Source: Blastocatellia bacterium
GTDB taxonomy: Bacteria; Acidobacteriota; Blastocatellia; HR10; J050
Length of the DNA stretch: 42,327 bases
Reading direction: 5' to 3'
Assembly (NCBI GenBank): GCA_026985075.1
Contig: JALSQX010000049.1
Span: 1-42,327 of the forward strand
The notes beneath the pieces are model-generated. The model ran no database searches. It was not told where the DNA came from and was given only the letters and a program-made list of their open reading frames with translations. Both the position numbers and the translations under genes were made by a program. This document shows, piece by piece, positions 9,561 to 19,794 of the stretch (positions are counted from its first letter, which is position 1; each line of letters opens with the position of its first letter).

Positions 9561-9619
9561 GTGATCTGATCACGCACCAATATTGCATGAGCTTATCCGA
9601 AATGATAAGATCATGCAAT
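9561..9619 (+). promoter_or_regulatory. Inverted-repeat operator upstream of the AbiE module
   Basis: A long inverted repeat spans 9582-9619. Outer arms ATTGCATGA and TCATGCAAT and inner arms CTTATC and GATAAG surround a 6-nt centre. A second short palindrome, GTGATCTGATCAC, lies at 9561-9573. AbiEi antitoxins are known to bind inverted repeats in their promoter and repress it; that role is inferred here from position. Confidence 0.7.
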
Positions 9620-9644
9620 GTATGAACCCGCGGGAGGAATCCAG

Positions 9645-10286
9645 ATGACGTTCGAACAGTTACTGCGGATCGTCGGGGACGAACCCCTTTTCGAGACGGG
9701 CTTTCTGCTTGCCGGCGATGAGGACCCTGCGACGTTGCGAGTGCAACTTTCCCGTTGGGTGAAAGCGGGCAAGCTGTTTCGTCTCCGCCGCGGGCTCTAC
9801 ATGCTGGCGCCGCCGTACCAGGGGGTGGCGCCTCATCCCTTTCTGGTCGCCAACCGACTGGTGCGCCCCTCTTATGTGAGTCTGGAAGCCGCCCTCGCTT
9901 ATTACGGTCTCATCCCGGAAGCGGTCTACACGGTGACCAGCGTCACTACCGGTCGGCCGGGGCGGCGGGAAACGCCGCTGGGGGCGTTCACCTATCGTCA
10001 CGTTCGGCCTCGGTTTTTCTTTGGTTACCGCCTGGAGGAGGTCGTGCCGGGCCAGCGCGCGTTTCTCGCCTCACCGGAGAAGGCGCTGTTGGACGTGGTG
10101 TACCTGCAACCGGAGAGCGATCTGGAGGCTTACCTGGAGGAGTTACGGCTGCAGAACCTAGAGCGCCTGGACCCCCGACGTTTGCGCCATCTGGCCGAGC
10201 GGATCGATTCGGCTAAGTTGCGCCGGGTGGTGGACATCATCCTGACCCGGCGCGAGCGGGAAGAGGAGGCGTACGAGCTTCTATGA
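9645..10286 (+). CDS. abiEi: AbiEi-type antitoxin (type IV toxin-antitoxin)
   Basis: From ATG 9645, preceded by GGGAGGAAT, the protein has 213 aa. The N-terminal winged helix-turn-helix (LRVQLSRWVKAGKLFRLRRGLYML) and the following block (HPFLVANRLVRPSYVSLEAALAYYGLIPE, ASPEKALLDVVYL) are typical of AbiEi/DUF4095-like antitoxins. These repress their own operon and counteract the cognate nucleotidyltransferase without a stable complex. The stop overlaps the next start by 4 nt. An upstream ATG at 9618 lies inside the inverted repeat and has no ribosome site, so it was not chosen. Confidence 0.9.
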   Translation: MTFEQLLRIVGDEPLFETGFLLAGDEDPATLRVQLSRWVKAGKLFRLRRGLYMLAPPYQGVAPHPFLVANRLVRPSYVSLEAALAYYGLIPEAVYTVTSVTTGRPGRRETPLGAFTYRHVRPRFFFGYRLEEVVPGQRAFLASPEKALLDVVYLQPESDLEAYLEELRLQNLERLDPRRLRHLAERIDSAKLRRVVDIILTRREREEEAYELL

Positions 10287-11104
10287 AGGACTACCTGACA
10301 GAGTTGGTGCGCGAGATGCCTTCTGGCTGGCAGGCGCGCAATCGGGTGCGGGAATATCTCCAGACCCGCATCCTGGAGGTGCTCCAACGGGAAGGCGCCA
10401 TGCGCCCTTTGGCCTTTCACGGGGACACGGCCTTACGGCTACTTTTTCAGGCTCCTCGCTACTCTGAGGATCTGGACTTCACGCTGGAGCGGCCGGAGGC
10501 GGGATATGATTTACGCAGGTACCTGCGAGCCATTCAGAGGGCTCTGGCGGCAGAAGGATATGAGATCACGCTGAAGGTCAACGACCGCAAGGTGGTGCAT
10601 AATGCCTTTGTCCGGTTTCGCGGCTTGCTTCACCAATTGCGGTTATCGGCTCACTCTGATGAAGTGCTGGCCGTCAAAGTCGAGGTAGACACTCAGCCTC
10701 CTGCAGGAGCGGGCCTGGAAATTACGCTGGTACGGCGTTACGTCACCTTGCGCCTGCAGCATCATGACAAGCCGACGCTGCTGGCGGGAAAGCTCCACGC
10801 TCTTTTGCAACGCCGGTATCTGAAAGGACGGGATGTGTACGACCTGATCTGGTTTTTGAGCGATCCGACCTGGCCGTCGCCCAACTTCACTCTCTTGAAC
10901 AACGCTCTTCGGCAAACCGGATGGTCGGGACCGGACGTGGGGGAAGCGAACTGGCGCGATGTGGTCTGGCAGCGACTCTCTCGGGCGTCCTGGCGTCGAG
11001 TGGTGGAAGATGTGCGTCCTTTTCTGGAGCGGGAAGCTGATGTGGCGCTGCTGACGCGGGAGAATCTGGAGCGGGTTTTGAAGCGATCTCCGCGGCCCTC
11101 ATAA
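10283..11104 (+). CDS. abiEii: AbiEii-type nucleotidyltransferase toxin
   Basis: This 273-aa protein is near the family's usual length. The nucleotidyltransferase motif is FHGDTALRLLF followed by SEDLDF (residues 45-66, D63/D65 catalytic). Further conserved parts are VKVEVD (131-136), LLAGKLHALLQR (167-177) and KGRDVYDLIWFL (181-192). AbiEii enzymes transfer nucleotides, tRNA being the known substrate of relatives, and cause growth arrest or phage abortive infection. One oddity: the usual Gly-Gly of the first motif is Gly-Asp (G47-D48). It forms an operon with the antitoxin through an ATGA overlap. Confidence 0.9.
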   Translation: MKDYLTELVREMPSGWQARNRVREYLQTRILEVLQREGAMRPLAFHGDTALRLLFQAPRYSEDLDFTLERPEAGYDLRRYLRAIQRALAAEGYEITLKVNDRKVVHNAFVRFRGLLHQLRLSAHSDEVLAVKVEVDTQPPAGAGLEITLVRRYVTLRLQHHDKPTLLAGKLHALLQRRYLKGRDVYDLIWFLSDPTWPSPNFTLLNNALRQTGWSGPDVGEANWRDVVWQRLSRASWRRVVEDVRPFLEREADVALLTRENLERVLKRSPRPS

Positions 11105-11159
11105 ATCCCGTTGTGCTTCGGTCGTTGAAGGACTCACCAATGGTCGCTTCCTGGTCTCA

Positions 11160-11256
11160 TTCCCCCAGATGCCCCGCAGCTCGCCTCCGGAGATCGTTAC
11201 CTCTCCCTAATAGCTCAGCACCTGACCCCTCCCCACAGACAAGCTGTGGGGCTTCC
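11160..11256 (+). repeat. C and B repeat modules
   Basis: A C hairpin variant (CCCCGCAG and CTCCGGAG) is followed by the TTACCTCTCCCTAATAGCTC tail and one B unit with stem CCCCACAG/CTGTGGGG. The B unit is cut after CTTCC by the next A module. The 55 nt between the abiEii stop and this block show nothing else. Confidence 0.75.
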
Positions 11257-11362
11257 AAGTAGCACACAGATCGGCACAGAAACGGCGGGAGCTACACGGA
11301 TAAACCAAACGAGGAAATCTGTGCTCATCCCGCCTTTCGCTGTGAGAATCTGTGGGCCGTTC
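11257..11362 (+). repeat. Module A repeat, copy 7
   Basis: Full-length copy with CGGCGGGAGCTACACGGAT in the left arm and AATCTGTGCTCATCCCGCC in the right arm, ending TGTGGGCCGTTC. It is inserted between a truncated B unit and two C units. Confidence 0.8.
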
Positions 11363-11600
11363 CCCGCTCAAGCCCCGGAGCTGGTCTCCGGGGTCCCTGA
11401 CTGGCCAGCTACTCCCACCGCCACGCCCATCGTCTCAGAATGCCCCGGAGCTCGCCTCCGGGGATCGTTACCTCTCCCTAATAGCTGTCACCTGACCCCT
11501 CCCCACAGATAACCGGTGGGGCTTCCTGGAGAGGGGGAGAGAAGACCCTCTCACTAGCCGACCACCTAACCCCTCCCCGCGGGCAAGCCACGGGGCTTCT
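11363..11600 (+). repeat. C-C-B-B repeat block
   Basis: Two C hairpins (loops CTGGT and CTCGC) with the same linker as at 2.85 kb are followed by two B units. Their stems are CCCCACAG/CGGTGGGG (one mismatch) and CCCCGCGG/CCACGGGG (one mismatch). With the preceding A module this repeats the order seen at 2705-3136. Confidence 0.75.
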
Positions 11601-11719
11601 GGAGGATCCATGCCCATCCATGTGCGGGGAACGGCCAGAGCCCGAAGTTCAACACTTCCCGTCCCCGGTCCAACAAAGCTCTGTGAATGATTCCCCACCC
11701 AGGCCCTGGCACTCGGTTT

Positions 11720-11747
11720 TTGAATGCAACTGAGAGGTTAATATGCT
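11720..11747 (+). promoter_or_regulatory. Predicted promoter of the TumA/TumE-like pair
   Basis: TTGAAT (11720-11725), 16 nt, then TATGCT (11742-11747). AGGAG at 11766-11770 serves the ATG at 11781. Confidence 0.45.
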
Positions 11748-11780
11748 ATGCTGTATTGTTGTCTCAGGAGATGAGAACAT

Positions 11781-12071
11781 ATGCGGAAAGTGACCCTTCG
11801 GTATAGCAAAACCTCCGAACCTTCTGCCGCCAAGGCCCACAAGGCCCTGCGAGAGGCGGTCCAGCAGGTGAGTGTGCAAGAAAGCATTCAGGCGCTAGTC
11901 CAGCAGTTGACACAATTTGAAGCGCAGTTTGGAATGAGCACCGTCGAGTTTTACACCAAATACCTGGCCGGGAGAATGGGTGACCGTCAAGCCGTCATGG
12001 AGTGGGCCGGGGCTTATGAGGAGTACATGTATCTTGTGCAGCGGTACGGCCACAAGATAGCCCAATCCTGA
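11781..12071 (+). CDS. Probable antitoxin of a TumE-like module
   Basis: This 96-aa, mostly helical protein (AKAHKALREAVQQVSVQESIQALVQQLTQFEAQFGMSTVEFY) has no clear DNA-binding motif. It is called an antitoxin because it is the first gene of a two-gene operon whose second product resembles TumE toxins and because the genes overlap by one base (TGATG). The segment FGMSTVEFYTKYLAGRMGDRQAVMEWAGAYE resembles a family of small partner proteins of such toxins. Function is inferred from context. Confidence 0.6.
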   Translation: MRKVTLRYSKTSEPSAAKAHKALREAVQQVSVQESIQALVQQLTQFEAQFGMSTVEFYTKYLAGRMGDRQAVMEWAGAYEEYMYLVQRYGHKIAQS

Positions 12072-12457
12072 TGAAGACGATCGACCAGTACTTTGACATC
12101 ATCGACAGCGCCATCCGCCACAGCGCCGTACAAGATGTGGAAATCACTTACACTGTGAGTAGTCCCACCTCGGGCACCATCAGCGCAAAATTGATGTTCC
12201 CAGACAACTCGCGCCTGGAGGTTTTTGAAAAAGTGATAATACGGGCTGACCGTCCCATAAAGGACAAGTATCGGTATCAGTATCTCAGAGCAAGACGCAC
12301 AATCTTCCGCTATGACAATTCACCGCACCATCCCGGATTGCCGAACTTTCCCCACCACAAGCACATGGGACGTAGGGTTGTGGGAGCCACCGAACCTATG
12401 CTCGGCCAGGTCCTCAAGGAAATCGCAACGCTCCTGGAACGGGAAGGAACGACGTGA
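12071..12457 (+). CDS. TumE-like (DUF6516) putative toxin
   Basis: This 128-aa protein has the block YRYQYLRARRTIFRYDNSPHHPGLPNFPHHKH (residues 68-98), which I recognise as the signature of the TumE/DUF6516 toxin family. Conserved tyrosine, arginine and several histidines could form an active or metal-binding site. The biochemical activity is not known to me. It overlaps its upstream partner by one base and is the third two-gene module of the island. Confidence 0.7.
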   Translation: MKTIDQYFDIIDSAIRHSAVQDVEITYTVSSPTSGTISAKLMFPDNSRLEVFEKVIIRADRPIKDKYRYQYLRARRTIFRYDNSPHHPGLPNFPHHKHMGRRVVGATEPMLGQVLKEIATLLEREGTT

Positions 12458-12766
12458 GCCATACACCCGATGACCGGAACCGCACACCGGGCTGACGGTT
12501 CACGCTCGTTACTTCCCTCACGGACACGACCCGTTATCATCGATGTTCCGATCCAGGATGCTCCCCAACTCTGGCCCCCGCACCGTGGTCAACTGCGCCG
12601 TCCCTCATCCACCGCAAGAGCGAGACATCGCCCTGTAAAACCTCTCCGCTCATGGTTCCTCCTCATCCCTCTACGGCGCAAAACCGACGGACGGCAACAT
12701 CATACGCCGCCAGCGTTTCAGCGAGACCATATGGTCATATGCCCTCTCTGGCTCCGACTCAGGAGC
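12458..12766. other. Intergenic stretch without recognised gene
   Basis: I see no credible gene here. The only distinct element is a copy of the palindromic 14-mer ATATGGTCATATGC at 12729-12742, not next to a promoter-like sequence. The composition resembles degraded repeat or gene remnants. Confidence 0.4.
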
Positions 12767-12975
12767 GAAATAGCCCATCGATGCACACAGCGGGATGCTC
12801 ACTGATCAGCCAAGGAGGGAAATCCATGTAAATCCCGCTTTTCACTGTGATAATCTGTGGGCTATTCAGGAACGGCACACAGATCAACGCCGAAACGGCG
12901 GGATCACCACCGATCAACCAAAAGGGAAAATCTGTGCTCATCCCGCCTCTCGCTGTGAGAATCTGTGGGCCGTTC
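12767..12975 (+). repeat. Module A repeats, two tandem copies (8-9)
   Basis: Copy 8 (12767-12867) is diverged (CAGCGGGAT left, AATCCATGTAAATCCCGC right). Copy 9 (12868-12975) is close to consensus. A left-arm remnant (ACACCGAACCGGCGGAATC) continues to about 13010. Confidence 0.8.
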
Positions 12976-13055
12976 AACCCGACACCGAACCGGCGGAATC
13001 GGCACCCCTCCAGGCACTGTGGGAGTTCACCCGGGCACGGAAGGGAGTCATCCCC

Positions 13056-13084
13056 TTGCTATCTGCGGGCATGACGAATACACT
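13056..13084 (+). promoter_or_regulatory. Predicted promoter of the 97-aa / nucleotidyltransferase pair
   Basis: TTGCTA (13056-13061), a 17-nt spacer and TACACT (13079-13084) lie 50 nt upstream of the ATG at 13135. Confidence 0.45.
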
Positions 13085-13134
13085 GTATGGAGGATGGGTG
13101 AGAGCGACCCCCCACTCTGGAGAGACCGAGGGGT

Positions 13135-13428
13135 ATGAACGAGCACACTCCATCCCTCAATTCATCCTTTCGAATCGGACCGTTCGTCCTGCGACGTGGT
13201 CCCGAACCTCACCCTCATCTCGGGAACCTCTCGGACGAAGAGGCGGTCAATCAGGCTCTGGCGCTCATGGCCTTCTCGTTGAATCGACTGTGGGAATCCC
13301 TGGCCATTCAATTGAAAACGCAGGATGCCGAGCGGATTCATCGAGAGATGAGGAGACTCCTGGCCCAATGGGCGCAGACGGGGATGCGCTGGCGTCAATG
13401 GAGAGAGCAACATGGGGCCGATTCGTGA
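13135..13428 (+). CDS. Small protein, putative partner of the following nucleotidyltransferase
   Basis: I do not recognise this 97-aa protein. Its C-terminal two-thirds is helical and charged (SDEEAVNQALALMAFSLNRLWESLAIQLKTQDAERIHREMRRLLAQW). It is preceded by GAGGGG and overlaps the next gene by 17 nt, so translation is probably coupled. By analogy with neighbouring modules it could be an antitoxin, but no family evidence supports that directly. Confidence 0.65.
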   Translation: MNEHTPSLNSSFRIGPFVLRRGPEPHPHLGNLSDEEAVNQALALMAFSLNRLWESLAIQLKTQDAERIHREMRRLLAQWAQTGMRWRQWREQHGADS

Positions 13429-13972
13429 AGAAGCCATTCTTGATGTCATCCTGGAGAGCATCGCTGTAGCGCGCCAGGTGCGCCTCCCCCATATGTTGAT
13501 CGGCGCCCTCGCCCTGGTGCTCTGGGGCCAGCCGCGGGCCACGACCGATGTTGATCTCATGATCGGCGTCCGCCCCGACGCTTGGGAGCGAGTCAAACAG
13601 CGCGCGCAACAAGCCGGGTTTGTGATCGATGAGATCTGGGAGCAATATAATCCCATGCTCCGAGGGCGACAGATGCGATTTCACAAAAACAGAATCACCG
13701 TCGACTTTCTGGCGCCTCGCGATGAACACGATCAAGAAGCCCTTCGCCGACGGCGATGGAAATCGTTCGCTCATCATCGCCTGGCCGTCGTCGCCCCAGA
13801 CGATCTCATCTTGCAGAAGCTGAAGACAGGGCGACCTCGGGATCTGGACGATGCGGCCAGCATTCTGGAGCGGAGTCAAAAGATGATCGATTATGACTAC
13901 TTGCGAGCTTGGGCCAAGCGATTGCGAGTTGTGCAAGAGTTGGATTACCTGCTGAACCTCAGAGAACACTGA
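13412..13972 (+). CDS. Nucleotidyltransferase of the AbiEii/MNT superfamily
   Basis: This 186-aa protein has the pol-beta-type motif IGALALVLWGQPRATTDVDLMI (residues 30-51, D46 and D48 metal ligands) and a downstream acidic segment (ITVDFL). The first motif has Gly-Ala (G31-A32) rather than Gly-Gly. The second half (APDDLILQKLKTGRPRDLDDAASIL) matches the AbiEii/DUF6036-like group. A toxin-like tRNA or protein nucleotidyltransferase is plausible, but a housekeeping role cannot be excluded. Confidence 0.82.
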   Translation: MGPIREEAILDVILESIAVARQVRLPHMLIGALALVLWGQPRATTDVDLMIGVRPDAWERVKQRAQQAGFVIDEIWEQYNPMLRGRQMRFHKNRITVDFLAPRDEHDQEALRRRRWKSFAHHRLAVVAPDDLILQKLKTGRPRDLDDAASILERSQKMIDYDYLRAWAKRLRVVQELDYLLNLREH

Positions 13973-13993: not shown

Positions 13994-14207
13994 AAATAGC
14001 CCACGGATGAACACAGAAACGGCGGGATCTGCACGGATAAACCAAAAGAGGAAATCTGTGCGAATCCCGCCTCTGGCTGTGTCAATCTCTGGGCCGATTC
14101 AAATAGCCCACGGATCAACACAGAAACGGCGGGATCACCACAGATCAATCCCCCGGGAAAAATCTGTGCCCATCCCGCCTCTCGCTGTGAAGATCGGTGG
14201 GCCATTC
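13994..14207 (+). repeat. Module A repeats, two tandem copies (10-11)
   Basis: Both copies are near consensus. In copy 11 the complementary cores are GGCGGGAT at 14128-14135 with ATCCCGCC at 14172-14179, and CACAGAT at 14139-14145 with ATCTGTG at 14162-14168, around a 16-nt loop. They separate the toxin-antitoxin island from the trehalose operon. Confidence 0.85.
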
Positions 14208-14234
14208 CCCGCTCCTCAGCCACGCCATTCAGGG

Positions 14235-14263
14235 TTCACAGTCATGGCCATTGATGGTATACT
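14235..14263 (+). promoter_or_regulatory. Promoter of the trehalose operon
   Basis: TTCACA (14235-14240), a 17-nt spacer and TATACT (14258-14263), predicting a start near 14270. This supports ATG 14313 over the in-frame ATG at 14244, which lies in the spacer. Confidence 0.7.
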
Positions 14264-14312: not shown

Positions 14313-15779
14313 ATGAATTTCAAAGAACTCTGCCCGGCCAGACTCGTTGTCGCGTCGAATCGAAGCCCTTACACTTTTCGCCAGATTGGGCGTTCGATGA
14401 AAGCGGAGCGAGCCATCGGCGGTCTGGTGGCTGCCGTAGAACCCGCCCTTTGCTTCCTCGGGGGCGTCTGGATCGGTTGGAGCGGCCGACCGCAGCACCA
14501 ACCGGAGCGCATGGCCGTCCCGCCCGATGATCCCAAGTACGAACTCCAGTTTGTCGCTCTCTCCAATGAGGAAATCAATCGCTACTACGAGGGGTTCGCC
14601 AATGGGGCTCTCTGGCCGCTCTGCCACTATGCTCTGGACAAGTGCGATTTCTCCCGCGAGCATTGGCAAGAGTATGCTGCCGTCAATCAAAAATTCGCCG
14701 CCGCCATCCTCCAAGAGCTTCGCCCTCAGGATGTCGTCTGGGTCCACGATTATCATCTCGCCCTCGTCCCCCAGTTCGTTCGGGCGGGCGCGCCTCAGGT
14801 TCGCATCGCCTACTTCTGGCACATTCCCTTCCCCAGCGTCGATCTGTTCCGAGCATTACCGTGGCGACAGGACGTCCTGCGAGGATTATTGAACAGCGAT
14901 CTCATCGGTTTCCACACTGAAACCTATGCCCGAAATTTCCTGGACTGTGCCGAGACCATACTGAACGTTCCTGTGGATCGGGAGAGAGGCACGGTCACCA
15001 TCGGGAACCGCACGGTGAAGGTCCGCGCCCTCCCGCTGGGGATCGACTTCGCCTACTGCCAGCAACTCGCCTCGTCGCCCGAAATGCAAGCCAAGGCCGA
15101 GACGATTCGCCGCGCCTTGAAATCGGAGATCGTAGCTCTGGGCGTGGAACGCCTCGATTACACCAAAGGCATTCTCGAACGGATGTGGGCCGTCGAACGA
15201 CTGCTGGAGAAATATCCCGATCTGCGCCATCGGTTCTCGCTGCTTCAAATCGCCGCGCCGAGCCGGACGAAGGTATCCGAGTATCGCCGCCTCAAACGGC
15301 TGGTGGACGAAACGATCGGTCGCATCAACGGTCGTTTCGCTCAATTGGACTGGGCGCCCATCACCTACTTCTACAAGGCCATCCCCCGCGCCGAGTTGAC
15401 GGCCTACTACCAGGCCGCCGACATGGCGCTGGTGATCCCCCTTCGCGATGGCATGAACCTGGTGGCCAAAGAATATGTGGCCTCCCGAACCAACGATGAA
15501 GGTATCATCATCCTCAGCGAGTTCGCCGGCGTCGCCGAAGAATTCGACCGGGAAGCCATCCTGGTGAATCCGTTCGACATCGAGCAAGTGGCCGAAGCCA
15601 TCAGGCAGGCCATCGAGATGGAGCCTTCGGAACGGCGCCGGCGCATGCACCGTTTGCGCGAGAAGGTCAAACGCCACGATCTCACCTGGTGGCTCCGGCG
15701 AATCCTCCGCGAGATCGCCTCTCTCTCAGAGAGCCGAGGAGCAGCCGAATCGCAGGTGATGCGCCATCGAGCTCCATGA
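14313..15779 (+). CDS. otsA: Trehalose-6-phosphate synthase (GT20)
   Basis: This 488-aa protein transfers glucose from a nucleotide sugar to glucose-6-phosphate. Visible family motifs are SNRSPY with the GGLVAAVEPAL loop (residues 15-46), VWVHDYHLALVP (143-153), FWHIPFPS (168-175), GVERLDYTKGI, and the C-terminal LRDGMNLVAKEYVA with the SEFAGVAEE donor-binding region. The ATG at 14313 has no clear Shine-Dalgarno sequence, but the promoter position favours it. It is the first gene of a four-gene operon and its stop overlaps the start of otsB (ATGA). The open frame extends upstream through the A repeats, which is not expected to be translated. Confidence 0.95.
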   Translation: MNFKELCPARLVVASNRSPYTFRQIGRSMKAERAIGGLVAAVEPALCFLGGVWIGWSGRPQHQPERMAVPPDDPKYELQFVALSNEEINRYYEGFANGALWPLCHYALDKCDFSREHWQEYAAVNQKFAAAILQELRPQDVVWVHDYHLALVPQFVRAGAPQVRIAYFWHIPFPSVDLFRALPWRQDVLRGLLNSDLIGFHTETYARNFLDCAETILNVPVDRERGTVTIGNRTVKVRALPLGIDFAYCQQLASSPEMQAKAETIRRALKSEIVALGVERLDYTKGILERMWAVERLLEKYPDLRHRFSLLQIAAPSRTKVSEYRRLKRLVDETIGRINGRFAQLDWAPITYFYKAIPRAELTAYYQAADMALVIPLRDGMNLVAKEYVASRTNDEGIIILSEFAGVAEEFDREAILVNPFDIEQVAEAIRQAIEMEPSERRRRMHRLREKVKRHDLTWWLRRILREIASLSESRGAAESQVMRHRAP

Positions 15780-16555
15780 ACATCACCGTCCCGCAACTCC
15801 TGGAACAGGTTCGCCGGTATGACCGCTTATTCCTTCTGCTCGATTACGATGGCACGCTGGTGCCCATTGCGCCCACTCCCGAGCGCGCGCGTCTCTCCCC
15901 CGATATGATCGATACGCTCGGCGCTCTGGCCGCCACCGAGAGCGTGCAACTGGCCGTGATCAGTGGCCGATCGCTGGCCGATCTCCGCCAACGAGTGCCC
16001 GTCGAAGGACTCTTCCTGGTGGGCGAACATGGTGCCGAGATCTGCACGCCCGCGGGTCAGCGACATTGGCTGGTCGATCCGGTGGCCATCCGGCCCGTCA
16101 TCGATCGACTGGCCACGCAAGCGGAAGCGGCTTTGGCCGGACTCACCGGCTGCCTGGTGGAGAACAAGACGTTGAGCCTGGCGTTGCATTACCGTCTAGC
16201 CGCACCGGCGGTGGCCCGGGAAGCCGTGACGCGCTTCGTTCGCCTCGGCGAAGCCCATGTTCGCGGCGGTCGGTTCCAATGGCTGCGAGGGAAACAGGTC
16301 ATCGAGCTGCGTCCGGCCGGCATTCACAAGGGGCGTGCCGTCGCCTTCCTCCTGGAGCAGTATTCGCGCCCCGGCGAGCATCCAATCTATCTGGGCGACG
16401 ATCGCACAGATGAGGATGCTTTTCGGGTGTTATCGGATGCCGGCATCACTATTCGGGTCTCAGCAGAGGAGAAATCGTCTCGGGCTCAGTACCGGCTGGG
16501 ATCACCGACGGAGGTTCATCAATTTCTCGATGGGTTGAGGAGGCAATATGGTTGA
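15776..16555 (+). CDS. otsB: Trehalose-6-phosphate phosphatase (HAD family)
   Basis: From ATG 15776 the protein has 259 aa. HAD motifs are DYDGTL (residues 23-28), ISGR with the LVGEHGAEI segment, K in KGRAVAFLL, and GDDRTDEDAF. It removes phosphate from trehalose-6-phosphate made by OtsA to give trehalose. The start overlaps the otsA stop by 4 nt, and its end overlaps the next gene by 8 nt, indicating tight translational coupling. A longer upstream frame exists but would overlap otsA extensively. Confidence 0.94.
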   Translation: MNITVPQLLEQVRRYDRLFLLLDYDGTLVPIAPTPERARLSPDMIDTLGALAATESVQLAVISGRSLADLRQRVPVEGLFLVGEHGAEICTPAGQRHWLVDPVAIRPVIDRLATQAEAALAGLTGCLVENKTLSLALHYRLAAPAVAREAVTRFVRLGEAHVRGGRFQWLRGKQVIELRPAGIHKGRAVAFLLEQYSRPGEHPIYLGDDRTDEDAFRVLSDAGITIRVSAEEKSSRAQYRLGSPTEVHQFLDGLRRQYG

Positions 16556-17192
16556 ACAGTTCCTCTTTTACAGCGAAGCGCACATCGCCGTCTGGGCGGG
16601 GCTCACCGCTTCCAACCTCTATTCGCTCTGGACGGGCCTGCAAAAGGTGAGCGGCTCGGCCATCTTCTACCACATGCATCACTCTCTGTTGCGTCGCCAT
16701 TTCACGACGTCCGATTATATGAACGACTTCGCCCGCTGGGTCTGGACTCACCTGAATCAACCGGCGTTGGCCGAAAAACTGGCCAGCATCGATCCCTGGG
16801 AATTCACCAGCGTGCGAGAAGTTCGAGAGAACCTCCTCGCCCACCTGGAGCCCTACGTGGGCGAGATGGAGACGTTCATGCGCGTGCCCGAGCGCGATGA
16901 ATTCCAGTTCATCGAGTTGCGGAGCCTGGCCTTTCCGACTGGGCTCACGGCCACCGACCTGCCGAGCTTTCGCGACTGTCTCCAGCAAGTGGGGCACGGC
17001 TCGCTGTTTTATCACCTCATCGAGGCGCGCCTGCGGCTGGGACGCCGGTCCAATGATTTCTCCGAATGGCTGGCCGATTGTTTGAAAGAAGACGAACTCG
17101 CCGAGCAGATCAACCATCTGAGCCCCTATGCCTACAATCTGTGGCAACTCCGATCCAAAATCATCGAACTCGTCGAAACGAGGCTCTCATGA
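16548..17192 (+). CDS. DUF5752-like protein with internal two-fold repeat
   Basis: This 214-aa cytoplasmic-looking protein has no signal peptide. I recognise it tentatively as DUF5752, a family seen beside trehalose synthases. The sequence contains two homologous halves: FYHMHH at residues 40-45 with MNDFARW (58-64), and FYHLIE at 154-159 with SNDFSEW (168-174). Each is followed by L-x(n)-LAE and P-x(n)-LR. The family's function is unknown; the operon position between otsB and treT suggests regulation of, or a scaffold for, trehalose synthesis. Histidines in the FYH motifs could be functional. Confidence 0.8.
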   Translation: MVEQFLFYSEAHIAVWAGLTASNLYSLWTGLQKVSGSAIFYHMHHSLLRRHFTTSDYMNDFARWVWTHLNQPALAEKLASIDPWEFTSVREVRENLLAHLEPYVGEMETFMRVPERDEFQFIELRSLAFPTGLTATDLPSFRDCLQQVGHGSLFYHLIEARLRLGRRSNDFSEWLADCLKEDELAEQINHLSPYAYNLWQLRSKIIELVETRLS

Positions 17193-18478
17193 AGAAAATC
17201 CGATTAGACGATTACGTTCCTATCGTTGGTTCGGCCGAGATTCAGGAGATTCGGGCATTGGCCGAGTGTGTGGGTCCGGTCTCGATCCAGCACATCAATT
17301 CGACGGCCACCGGCGGCGGCGTGGCCGAGATTCTGTCCTGGGTGGTCGCGCTCATGAAGGATCTGGGATTCAAGGTGAAATGGACGGTCATCGACGGCCC
17401 GCCCACGTTCTTCGAGGTGACCAAAGCCTTTCACAATGCGCTGCATGGCGCGCGCATCTCGGTCACTCCGGAGATGTTCGAAGTGTTCACCGAAGTGAGC
17501 AAACACAATCTCCGGAAAGTCGATCGCCGGGCGGATTTCATCATCGTGCACGACCCGCAACCGGTGGGACTCATTGTGGCCCGAAAAAATCAGGGCACGC
17601 GCTGGATCTGGCGCTGTCATATCGATCTCTCCGAGGCGGATGCCCGCGTATGGGGATTTTTGCGAACCTATGTGGAACGCTTCGACGCCGCCGTGTTTCA
17701 CCTGCCGGAATATGCCAAGGAGCTGCTCATCGACCAGTTCATCATCCCCCCGGCCATCGATCCGCTCAGCGACAAGAATCGAGAATTGAGTCCCTCGGAG
17801 ATTGACCAGGTGATCAACCGCTTCGGCATTGATCCCGGGAAGCCCATCATCCTGCAGGTCTCGCGGTTCGACCGCCTCAAAGATCCCCTCGGCGTCATCG
17901 AAGCCTATCGGATGGTGAAGCACTGGCACGATTGTCAACTCGTCCTGGCCGGAGGCAGCGCCGCCGATGACCCGGAGAGTGGCCGCGTGCTGGCCGAAGT
18001 GCGCGAGCGCGCTGCCGATCTCCGCGATGTGCACATCCTCGACCTGCCCCCGACGAGCCACGTGGAGATCAACGCCCTGCAGCGCGCGGCGACGGTGGTC
18101 GTTCAAAAGTCGGTGAAGGAAGGATTTGGCCTGGTGGTCACCGAAGCGATGTGGAAAGGGAAACCGGTTGTGGGCGGCGCGGTGGGCGGCATTCGGCGTC
18201 AGATCATCCACGGGAGCACCGGATTCCTGGTGCACACGGTCGAAGGCACGGCTTTCCGCGTCCGTCAACTGCTCAGTCATCCGGAGATGGCCGCCCAGAT
18301 GGGGCGGGCCGCTCGCGAGTATGTGCGCACGAACTTCCTCGTCACGCAATACTTGAAAAACTGGCTGTTGCTCCTGCTGGCCGTCAGGAAACCCTGGAAG
18401 GGATTGATGCACTGGCGGAGACCTTTTCCAGAAGCATCGCCTGAGGAAATCCAGGAAGTGAACGAGCTCGAACCGTGA
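17189..18478 (+). CDS. treT: Trehalose glycosyltransferring synthase, TreT-like (GT4)
   Basis: This 429-aa protein starts at ATG 17189, overlapping the previous stop by 4 nt. TreT signatures are IQHINSTATGGGVAEIL near the N-terminus, the GT-B donor-site motif VSRFDRLKDPLGV and the E-x7-E loop EGFGLVVTEAMWKGKPVVGG. TreT makes trehalose in one step from a nucleotide-activated glucose and free glucose, and can run in reverse. Its presence behind otsAB gives the operon two routes. The last codons and stop (ELEP) are shared with an intergenic B repeat, so the natural C-terminus may have been altered. Confidence 0.9.
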   Translation: MKKIRLDDYVPIVGSAEIQEIRALAECVGPVSIQHINSTATGGGVAEILSWVVALMKDLGFKVKWTVIDGPPTFFEVTKAFHNALHGARISVTPEMFEVFTEVSKHNLRKVDRRADFIIVHDPQPVGLIVARKNQGTRWIWRCHIDLSEADARVWGFLRTYVERFDAAVFHLPEYAKELLIDQFIIPPAIDPLSDKNRELSPSEIDQVINRFGIDPGKPIILQVSRFDRLKDPLGVIEAYRMVKHWHDCQLVLAGGSAADDPESGRVLAEVRERAADLRDVHILDLPPTSHVEINALQRAATVVVQKSVKEGFGLVVTEAMWKGKPVVGGAVGGIRRQIIHGSTGFLVHTVEGTAFRVRQLLSHPEMAAQMGRAAREYVRTNFLVTQYLKNWLLLLLAVRKPWKGLMHWRRPFPEASPEEIQEVNELEP

Positions 18479-18765
18479 CCCCTCCCCGCCGTCTGAGCCG
18501 CGAGGGCGCCCCCGGAGAGGGGGAGGAAAAGCGCCGGGAACTAGCCAGCAACTGAGTCTCCCCGCCGTCCGAGCCGCGAGGGCGCCCCCGGAGAGGGGGA
18601 GGAGTGAACCTCCCGGGACTAGCTGATCATATGACTCCTCCCCACGGACCAGCCGTGGGGCTTCCCCGCTCAAGCCCCGGAGCTCGCCTCCGGGGATCGT
18701 TACGTTTCAAGCTATTAGCTCGAACCGTGATCCCTCCCCGCCGTCCGAGCCGCGAGGGCGTCCCT
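18465..18765 (+). repeat. B/C repeat block overlapping the treT 3' end
   Basis: AGCTCGAACCGTGA at 18465-18478 (end of treT) is repeated exactly at 18718-18731, each followed by a B unit. B units occur near 18476, 18555 (GCCGTCCGAGCCGCGAGGGCG type), 18635 (stem CCCCACGG 18640-18647 / CCGTGGGG 18653-18660) and 18732. A C hairpin (loop CTCGC) lies at about 18675-18696. Confidence 0.8.
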
Positions 18766-18905
18766 CTGTGCCCATCCCGCTTCTCGTCAGGGTCATCTGT
18801 GGGTGGTTCAAGAATGGCACACGGATCAGCACAGAAACGGCAGGATCATCGCAGATAAAATCTGTGCCCATCCCGCCTTGGGGCTGTGCCCATCTGTGGG
18901 CGATT
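18766..18905 (+). repeat. Module A right half (12) plus full copy (13)
   Basis: A right-arm fragment (18766-18809) is followed by a full but diverged copy (18810-18905) with CGGCAGGAT left and AATCTGTGCCCATCCCGCC right. Confidence 0.75.
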
Positions 18906-19218: not shown

Positions 19219-19794
19219 GTGAAAAAAGTAAGTATCGATGAACTGATTGCTGGACTCAGCCAGTTCTCTCCTGAGGACTTCACTCAGGACCATGTCTTGG
19301 CGTACTTACGAGAGTATAGGGTAGACGAAGCCTCACTGGAGCCCTACATTCGGTTTGGCGAACGAACGTTCACTCGCAATCCGGTGAGCAAAGACGAACA
19401 TTTCGAGGCCGTCCTTCTCTGTTGGGAACCCGGACAGCACTCGCCGGTGCACCGGCACCTTGGACAGTTGGGATGGATGACCGTCGTCCGAGGTCAGCTC
19501 GTCATCACCACATTCACCAAACTGCGCAGTCGATTCATGGAGAGCGAAGAGCCCGACGTCAACTGGAGCCCCATCAATTCCATCTTCCTCAAGCAGCAAC
19601 ACCGATATGCCGTCCCCGAAGGGGAGGTCATCGTCGAAGTGACCAAGCCAGAGACCATCCACATGACCGAGAATCCGACCGCGCTCAAACAGCAAGCCAT
19701 CAGTTTGCATATTTGTTCGCCGCCGTCGGCCGTCTCCGTCATCTACGATGTCGAAAACCACCGCTGCCGAACGGTTCGTATGGGTTACGTCTGA
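19219..19794 (+). CDS. Cysteine dioxygenase type I family protein (cupin)
   Basis: This 191-aa protein has the cupin iron ligands H78 and H80 (SPVHRHLGQLG) and H148 (ETIHMTENP). Arg53 (TFTRNP) fits the carboxylate-binding arginine of cysteine dioxygenases, whereas 3-mercaptopropionate dioxygenases have Gln there. The Cys that forms the Cys-Tyr cofactor in eukaryotes is replaced by Gly, as in many bacterial enzymes. The expected reaction is oxidation of cysteine to cysteine sulfinate. It starts with GTG after GAGAGGGAAGA. It stands alone downstream of a repeat block. Confidence 0.85.
   Translation: MKKVSIDELIAGLSQFSPEDFTQDHVLAYLREYRVDEASLEPYIRFGERTFTRNPVSKDEHFEAVLLCWEPGQHSPVHRHLGQLGWMTVVRGQLVITTFTKLRSRFMESEEPDVNWSPINSIFLKQQHRYAVPEGEVIVEVTKPETIHMTENPTALKQQAISLHICSPPSAVSVIYDVENHRCRTVRMGYV

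Follow-up and report, generated by a model that had tools for sequence, protein, structure and literature searches.

The window, by which we mean the whole analysed stretch of 42,327 nucleotides from a Blastocatellia bacterium (contig JALSQX010000049.1), holds four consecutive genes on its plus strand: otsA, otsB, a gene of the DUF5752 (PF19027)/OrfY family and treT (Table 1). Neighbouring genes overlap by 4 nt (otsA/otsB), 8 nt (otsB/DUF5752) and 4 nt (DUF5752/treT), and we infer that all four are transcribed as a single unit. A promoter-like site about 50 bp 5' of otsA is compatible with one transcript, being a consensus match only and no proof, as such matches numbered 2 in the region against 1.1 in shuffled sequences. 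A longer otsA frame is also open from position 14007, while in the version given in the table the GT20 match sets in near residue 10. The same four genes, in the same order and with the same overlaps, are found in a near relative (L031) at 94–96% identity, falling to 82% in the otsB stretch.

Table 1. Location of the operon, its surroundings and the related loci discussed in the text. Positions without a locus prefix are those of the window.
Feature	Position	Strand	Remarks
Toxin-antitoxin-like genes	9618–13972	+	5' of the operon
AbiEi/AbiEii pair	9618–11104	+	upstream of otsA
TumE toxin and the small gene before it	11781–12457	+	
DUF6036/AbiEii-like nucleotidyltransferase	13412–13972	+	
Dispersed intergenic repeats, operon flanks	13994–14208; 18482–18900		
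Promoter-like site	14235–14263	+	TTCACA-17-TATACT with TG; consensus match only
otsA, GT20 trehalose-6-phosphate synthase-like	14313–15779	+	488 aa; ATG at 14313, stop codon ends at 15779
otsB, HAD-type trehalose-6-phosphate phosphatase	15776–16555	+	259 aa; ATG at 15776
DUF5752 (PF19027)/OrfY-family gene	16548–17192	+	214 aa; ATG at 16548; two tandem repeats
treT, GT4 trehalose glycosyltransferring synthase	17189–18478	+	429 aa; ATG at 17189
Cysteine dioxygenase-like cupin	19219–19794	+	3' of treT; PF05995, 5.5e-12
DUF5752-treT-treY-treZ cluster	L051:1785–7975	-	genome without detected otsA
Decayed second DUF5752-treT copy (G095)	L058:7470–8367	-	behind otsA
Candidatus Tectomicrobia cluster	L032:6357–8017	+	
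Receiver/DUF5752-repeat/PPDK_N protein	L061:4209–7220	+	further examples on L060, L062 and L063
Protein of about one DUF5752 repeat	L064:5812–6093	-	94 aa
TreT-family GT4 gene and MscS-type channel gene	L075:2249–5231	+	
TreT and OtsA 3' of type III-A CRISPR genes	L070:1–8337	-	

The operon is flanked by a nucleotidyltransferase-like gene on its 5' side and by a cupin gene on its 3' side, the latter cysteine dioxygenase-like and with no evident link to trehalose. Other toxin-antitoxin-like genes, among them an AbiEi/AbiEii pair and a TumE toxin, lie further 5'. Dispersed repeats occupy the intergenic regions on both flanks of the operon and recur at many further intergenic sites of the window; their units include one of 46 nt with 15 copies and one of 48 nt with 12 copies, alongside others rich in GC.

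Trehalose is made by OtsA and OtsB through trehalose-6-phosphate (T6P), and by TreT directly from NDP-glucose and glucose. Both routes look intact in the window as judged by family and motif. The otsA product matched PF00982 (GT20) in Pfam at 4.6e-150 and PDB 5jij at 8.4e-105, with the active-site motifs retained in the alignment. Its TIGR02400 score of 527.4 bits falls a little under the equivalog cut-off of 564.9, so that its identity as OtsA rests on family and motifs, and the score against the model for glucosylglycerol-phosphate synthase was far lower (372 of 569 bits). The otsB product matched PF02358 (Trehalose_PPase) in Pfam at 1.2e-45, exceeded the TIGR00685 cut-off of 68.05 with 167.9 bits, matched PDB 5gvx at 1.1e-34 and keeps the HAD motifs DxDGT and GDDxTDEDAF. 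In the treT product the TreT N-terminal domain (PF21269, TreT_GT1; 4.5e-55 in Pfam) is joined to a GT4 domain (PF00534, 1.6e-26). Its closest solved TreT is PDB 6zj4 (3.1e-127), it matched the Pyrococcus horikoshii TreT (PDB 2x6q) at 1.5e-111, and along with full-length similarity it keeps the GGG loop and the WRCHIDLS and EGFGL...EA motifs of characterised TreTs. The NCBIfam equivalog cut-off for TreT_Thcocales, a model that by its name describes the Thermococcales type, was missed with 411 of 775 bits. From domains and similarity the product is a predicted TreT (EC 2.4.1.245) with glucose as the predicted acceptor and trehalose as the predicted product. The original prediction had described two complete trehalose routes with a DUF5752-like gene between them in one tight, operon-like cluster with overlaps of 4–8 nt; families, motifs and exact coordinates all agree with that description.

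The third gene is more than DUF5752-like, since its product is a true member of PF19027 (9.8e-65, 218 bits against a cut-off of 23, covering profile positions 2–208 of 208). OrfY of Thermoproteus tenax (PDB 4cso_A) is a full-length homologue, at 2.2e-29 by sequence and 1.2e-46 by profile, and the two proteins have H and NDF..W positions in common. This homology to a solved structure means that the family is not wholly unknown. The 2014 entry 4CSO is entitled 'The structure of OrfY from Thermoproteus tenax' and names the molecule 'transcription factor'; no paper on DUF5752, T. tenax OrfY or 4CSO was found in a literature search that left most subscription journals outside. The protein is built of two tandem units of about 100 residues (about residues 3–104 and 117–213), which matched each other in hhalign with 99.7% probability (E 4.6e-27). 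An invariant His and a DF..W motif recur in both repeats, the invariant residues being H42, D60, F61 and W64 in repeat 1 and H156, D170, F171 and W174 in repeat 2. A fold inference was dropped since the AlphaFold2 model, made from three sequences, was poor (pLDDT 57), and Foldseek with this model returned OrfY only, followed by unrelated ferritins. A genome-wide scan with a single DUF5752 protein gave two loci only; there was no match in plasmids or in a viral scan.

A single DUF5752 repeat also occurs in proteins of about 1000 aa, placed between a receiver and a PPDK_N (PEP synthase-like ATP-binding) domain. Weak matches pointed to such proteins in some thirty genomes of the phylum; four of the proteins were read and two scanned. 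In one genome where DUF5752 is not a neighbour of TreT, a 94-aa protein made up of about one repeat is encoded on the treT contig, some 50 kb away (L064, Table 1).

The distribution of the family was surveyed in 396 genomes of one phylum, with the weak matches in the ~1000-aa proteins, which have a single repeat and another architecture, excluded from the pairing counts. TreT was present in 46 genomes and full-length DUF5752 in 32, all of them within the 46, whereas it was absent from all 350 genomes that lack TreT. The co-occurrence involves 27 genera and is strong (Fisher 1.7e-36, uncorrected for relatedness). Every intact DUF5752 copy immediately precedes treT in the same orientation, the two genes mostly overlapping or almost touching, with gap sizes outside the window derived from alignment starts and not from mapped start codons. 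The ots genes are far less constant. One or both of otsA and otsB adjoin the pair in at least 21 of the 32 genomes, in the orders otsA-otsB-[pair] (the order of the window), otsA-[pair]-otsB or [pair]-otsB-otsA, while 10 of the 32 have no ots gene next to it. In one genome (G203) an otsA match is absent and treY-treZ follow the pair (TIGR02401 975 bits, TIGR02402 719 bits; Table 1). With ots varying in position and the pair strict, DUF5752-TreT is what stays constant, and the second route can be exchanged.

Divergence of the proteins points the same way. Where all four genes are present (17 loci), the distances of DUF5752 followed those of TreT when OtsA was given (partial Mantel r 0.68, p 0.0002) more closely than those of OtsA when TreT was given (partial r 0.36); they correlate also, more weakly, with both OtsA and OtsB. 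Correlated gene trees can, however, mirror joint inheritance alone.

Two further loci are damaged in appearance. G095 has a second, decayed copy in which DUF5752 is broken across two frames and TreT is reduced to its N-terminal part. The same cluster is found on a Candidatus Tectomicrobia contig, where OtsA is without its C-terminal part and OtsB is spread over two frames, defects which could be damage or an assembly error; a search in the phylum of this genome returned that genome alone.

TreT-family matches without DUF5752 were found in 14 genomes, in three of which a contig edge hides the upstream neighbour of treT (G005, G048 and G322, the last being a fragment located at contig base 3). 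The existence of such homologues means that TreT activity as such needs no DUF5752. In a tree with the first seven DUF5752-less TreTs, five of the seven grouped with the P. horikoshii TreT (support 100/99), while the TreT of the window branched among the DUF5752-linked TreTs. A single exclusive clade of all DUF5752-linked TreTs was rejected (AU p 9e-6): interspersed with them are the TreT of T. uzoniensis, the group of P. horikoshii and L069, the last of which sits at the end of a contig, with the gene upstream of its treT unassembled. The two kinds of locus differ also in their ots genes. Beside DUF5752-less TreT, OtsA and OtsB are fused in one open frame in 7 of 7 loci with both ots domains assembled, whereas they are separate in the window and in two DUF5752-linked loci checked likewise, and order or frames point to separate genes in the other DUF5752-linked loci, the damaged Tectomicrobia locus aside. 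Striking as this split is in the phylum, it could reflect inheritance in two lineages, and T. tenax has both a fused TPSP and OrfY. Two observations on the surroundings of TreT-family genes may be added. One TreT-family GT4 gene, whose product is 33% identical to the TreT of the window, is followed by an MscS-type mechanosensitive channel gene in a manner that recalls the gt-msc pair of T. tenax (L075), and in another locus (L070) TreT and OtsA lie directly 3' of type III-A CRISPR genes (Csm3 219 bits).

The operon may be best explained as one for the synthesis of trehalose as a compatible solute by two parallel routes, OtsA and OtsB working through T6P and TreT working from NDP-glucose and glucose. 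One transcript would let OtsA, OtsB, DUF5752 and TreT be made together, and the DUF5752/OrfY protein, a small and presumably soluble protein with two ~100-residue helical repeats, would be made just ahead of TreT from the overlapping gene. There it probably binds TreT, or senses a metabolite on its behalf, and so tunes the activity or stability of TreT. We thus propose, at slightly better than even odds (about 0.52), that DUF5752 is a dedicated cytosolic accessory or regulatory partner of TreT. The four genes, their families, the strict pairing, the repeats and the relation to OrfY are established by the sequences, whereas binding to TreT, regulation of TreT activity and synthesis as the operating direction are inferred. 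Points against the proposal are the name under which OrfY was deposited, the weaker correlation of DUF5752 with OtsA and OtsB, and the TreT homologues that have no DUF5752. The single repeat inside the receiver-PPDK_N proteins suits a sensing or protein-contact domain. A bolder form of the proposal, possible though on balance doubtful, takes the repeat as a general sensing domain and DUF5752 as the regulatory subunit of a biosynthetic TreT, the two forming a heteromeric synthase beside, and possibly touching, OtsA and OtsB.

The main rival is that DUF5752/OrfY is a DNA-binding transcription factor for the trehalose genes, autoregulated within the operon, which we consider unlikely but worth keeping in sight. 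Regulators often adjoin the genes under their control, and the solved homologue was deposited as 'OrfY protein, transcription factor'; that label, however, is a PDB molecule name alone. No DNA-binding family in Pfam or NCBIfam was matched by the protein, members of the family are acidic (median pI 5.8), the gene in the loci read always precedes treT at close range and was in no case divergent or apart, and the same repeat is found within the receiver-PPDK_N proteins. These arguments make the transcription-factor reading less probable.

The original prediction took the two routes in one transcript as a sign of switching between synthesis and breakdown of trehalose, or of a multi-enzyme complex with the DUF5752-like protein as its organiser or regulator. 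The tie to a trehalose enzyme has been upheld, but it is specific to TreT (32 of 32 genomes), and the three-enzyme organiser or switch now appears improbable. In its favour are the overlaps among all four genes, the frequent presence of ots genes beside the pair and the activation of the T. tenax TPSP by a co-encoded GT4 protein in a complex (PMC3634074). Against it, the pair manages without adjacent ots genes in almost a third of its genomes and in one without any detected otsA, fused OtsA-OtsB occurs beside TreT with no DUF5752 at all, and the activating GT of T. tenax is PimA-like and not a TreT. Switching in particular lacks support: PMC7688234, citing Kouril 2008, describes the T. tenax TreT as unidirectional, and the few genes searched around the operon included no trehalose-degrading enzyme or sugar transporter. 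With neither transporter nor TrmB beside the operon and the T. tenax enzyme reportedly unidirectional, breakdown by reverse action of TreT is unsupported. Less probable still is that DUF5752 itself handles a substrate or product of TreT, as an enzyme or as a sugar-binding protein, for example in supplying glucose or preventing trehalose loss; its invariant residues could form a ligand site and the motif is common to the receiver-PPDK_N proteins, but no enzyme family besides PF19027 was matched in Pfam and no other PDB fold was found, albeit with a poor model.

The pairing with TreT gives this family of unknown function a sharp and testable partner and corrects the choice of enzyme for studying it, and bacterial DUF5752 is now tied to the solved OrfY of T. 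tenax. TreT homologues can also be told apart as those linked to DUF5752 and those that resemble the P. horikoshii enzyme and do without it. Cells relying on trehalose often keep several routes, and if DUF5752 controls TreT, this would help to explain the choice between two of them in a cell.

A bacterial cluster of ots, DUF5752 and treT was not described in the literature searched, in which subscription journals were thinly covered, and the locus appears to be a recurrent, undescribed gene module made of known enzymes. In the Thermococcales, treT is likewise in an operon with a regulatory gene, as part of the trehalose/maltose transporter operon malEFG-treT-trmB-malK (PMC4158304); TreT serves trehalose/maltose uptake there, whereas no transporter or TrmB is seen beside the treT of the window. 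Sulfolobus acidocaldarius resembles the window in having several synthesis routes per cell, three of which are used together under salt stress (PMC7688234), but the genes named there are scattered (saci_1827, saci_1436, saci_1249) and the TPS belongs to GT4, while those of the window are clustered and the synthase is of GT20. The S. acidocaldarius genome matches both PF19027 and PF21269, and our literature search found nothing on the neighbours of saci_1827. T. tenax comes closest. It makes trehalose by TreT as well, and its OrfY is of the same PF19027 family, although archaeal and deposited as a transcription factor while the homologue in the window is bacterial. As in the window, a trehalose-phosphate route and a GT4 protein are encoded in one operon, to which the authors found nothing comparable in other archaea or bacteria at the time (PMC3634074). 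The differences are that TPS and TPP are fused in TPSP where OtsA and OtsB are encoded separately, that the GT4 protein is a PimA-like activator in T. tenax and a TreT in the window, and that the T. tenax operon includes a mechanosensitive channel gene, of which there is none directly adjacent to the operon described here. The TPSP-GT complex of T. tenax is the nearest published trehalose complex in prokaryotes.
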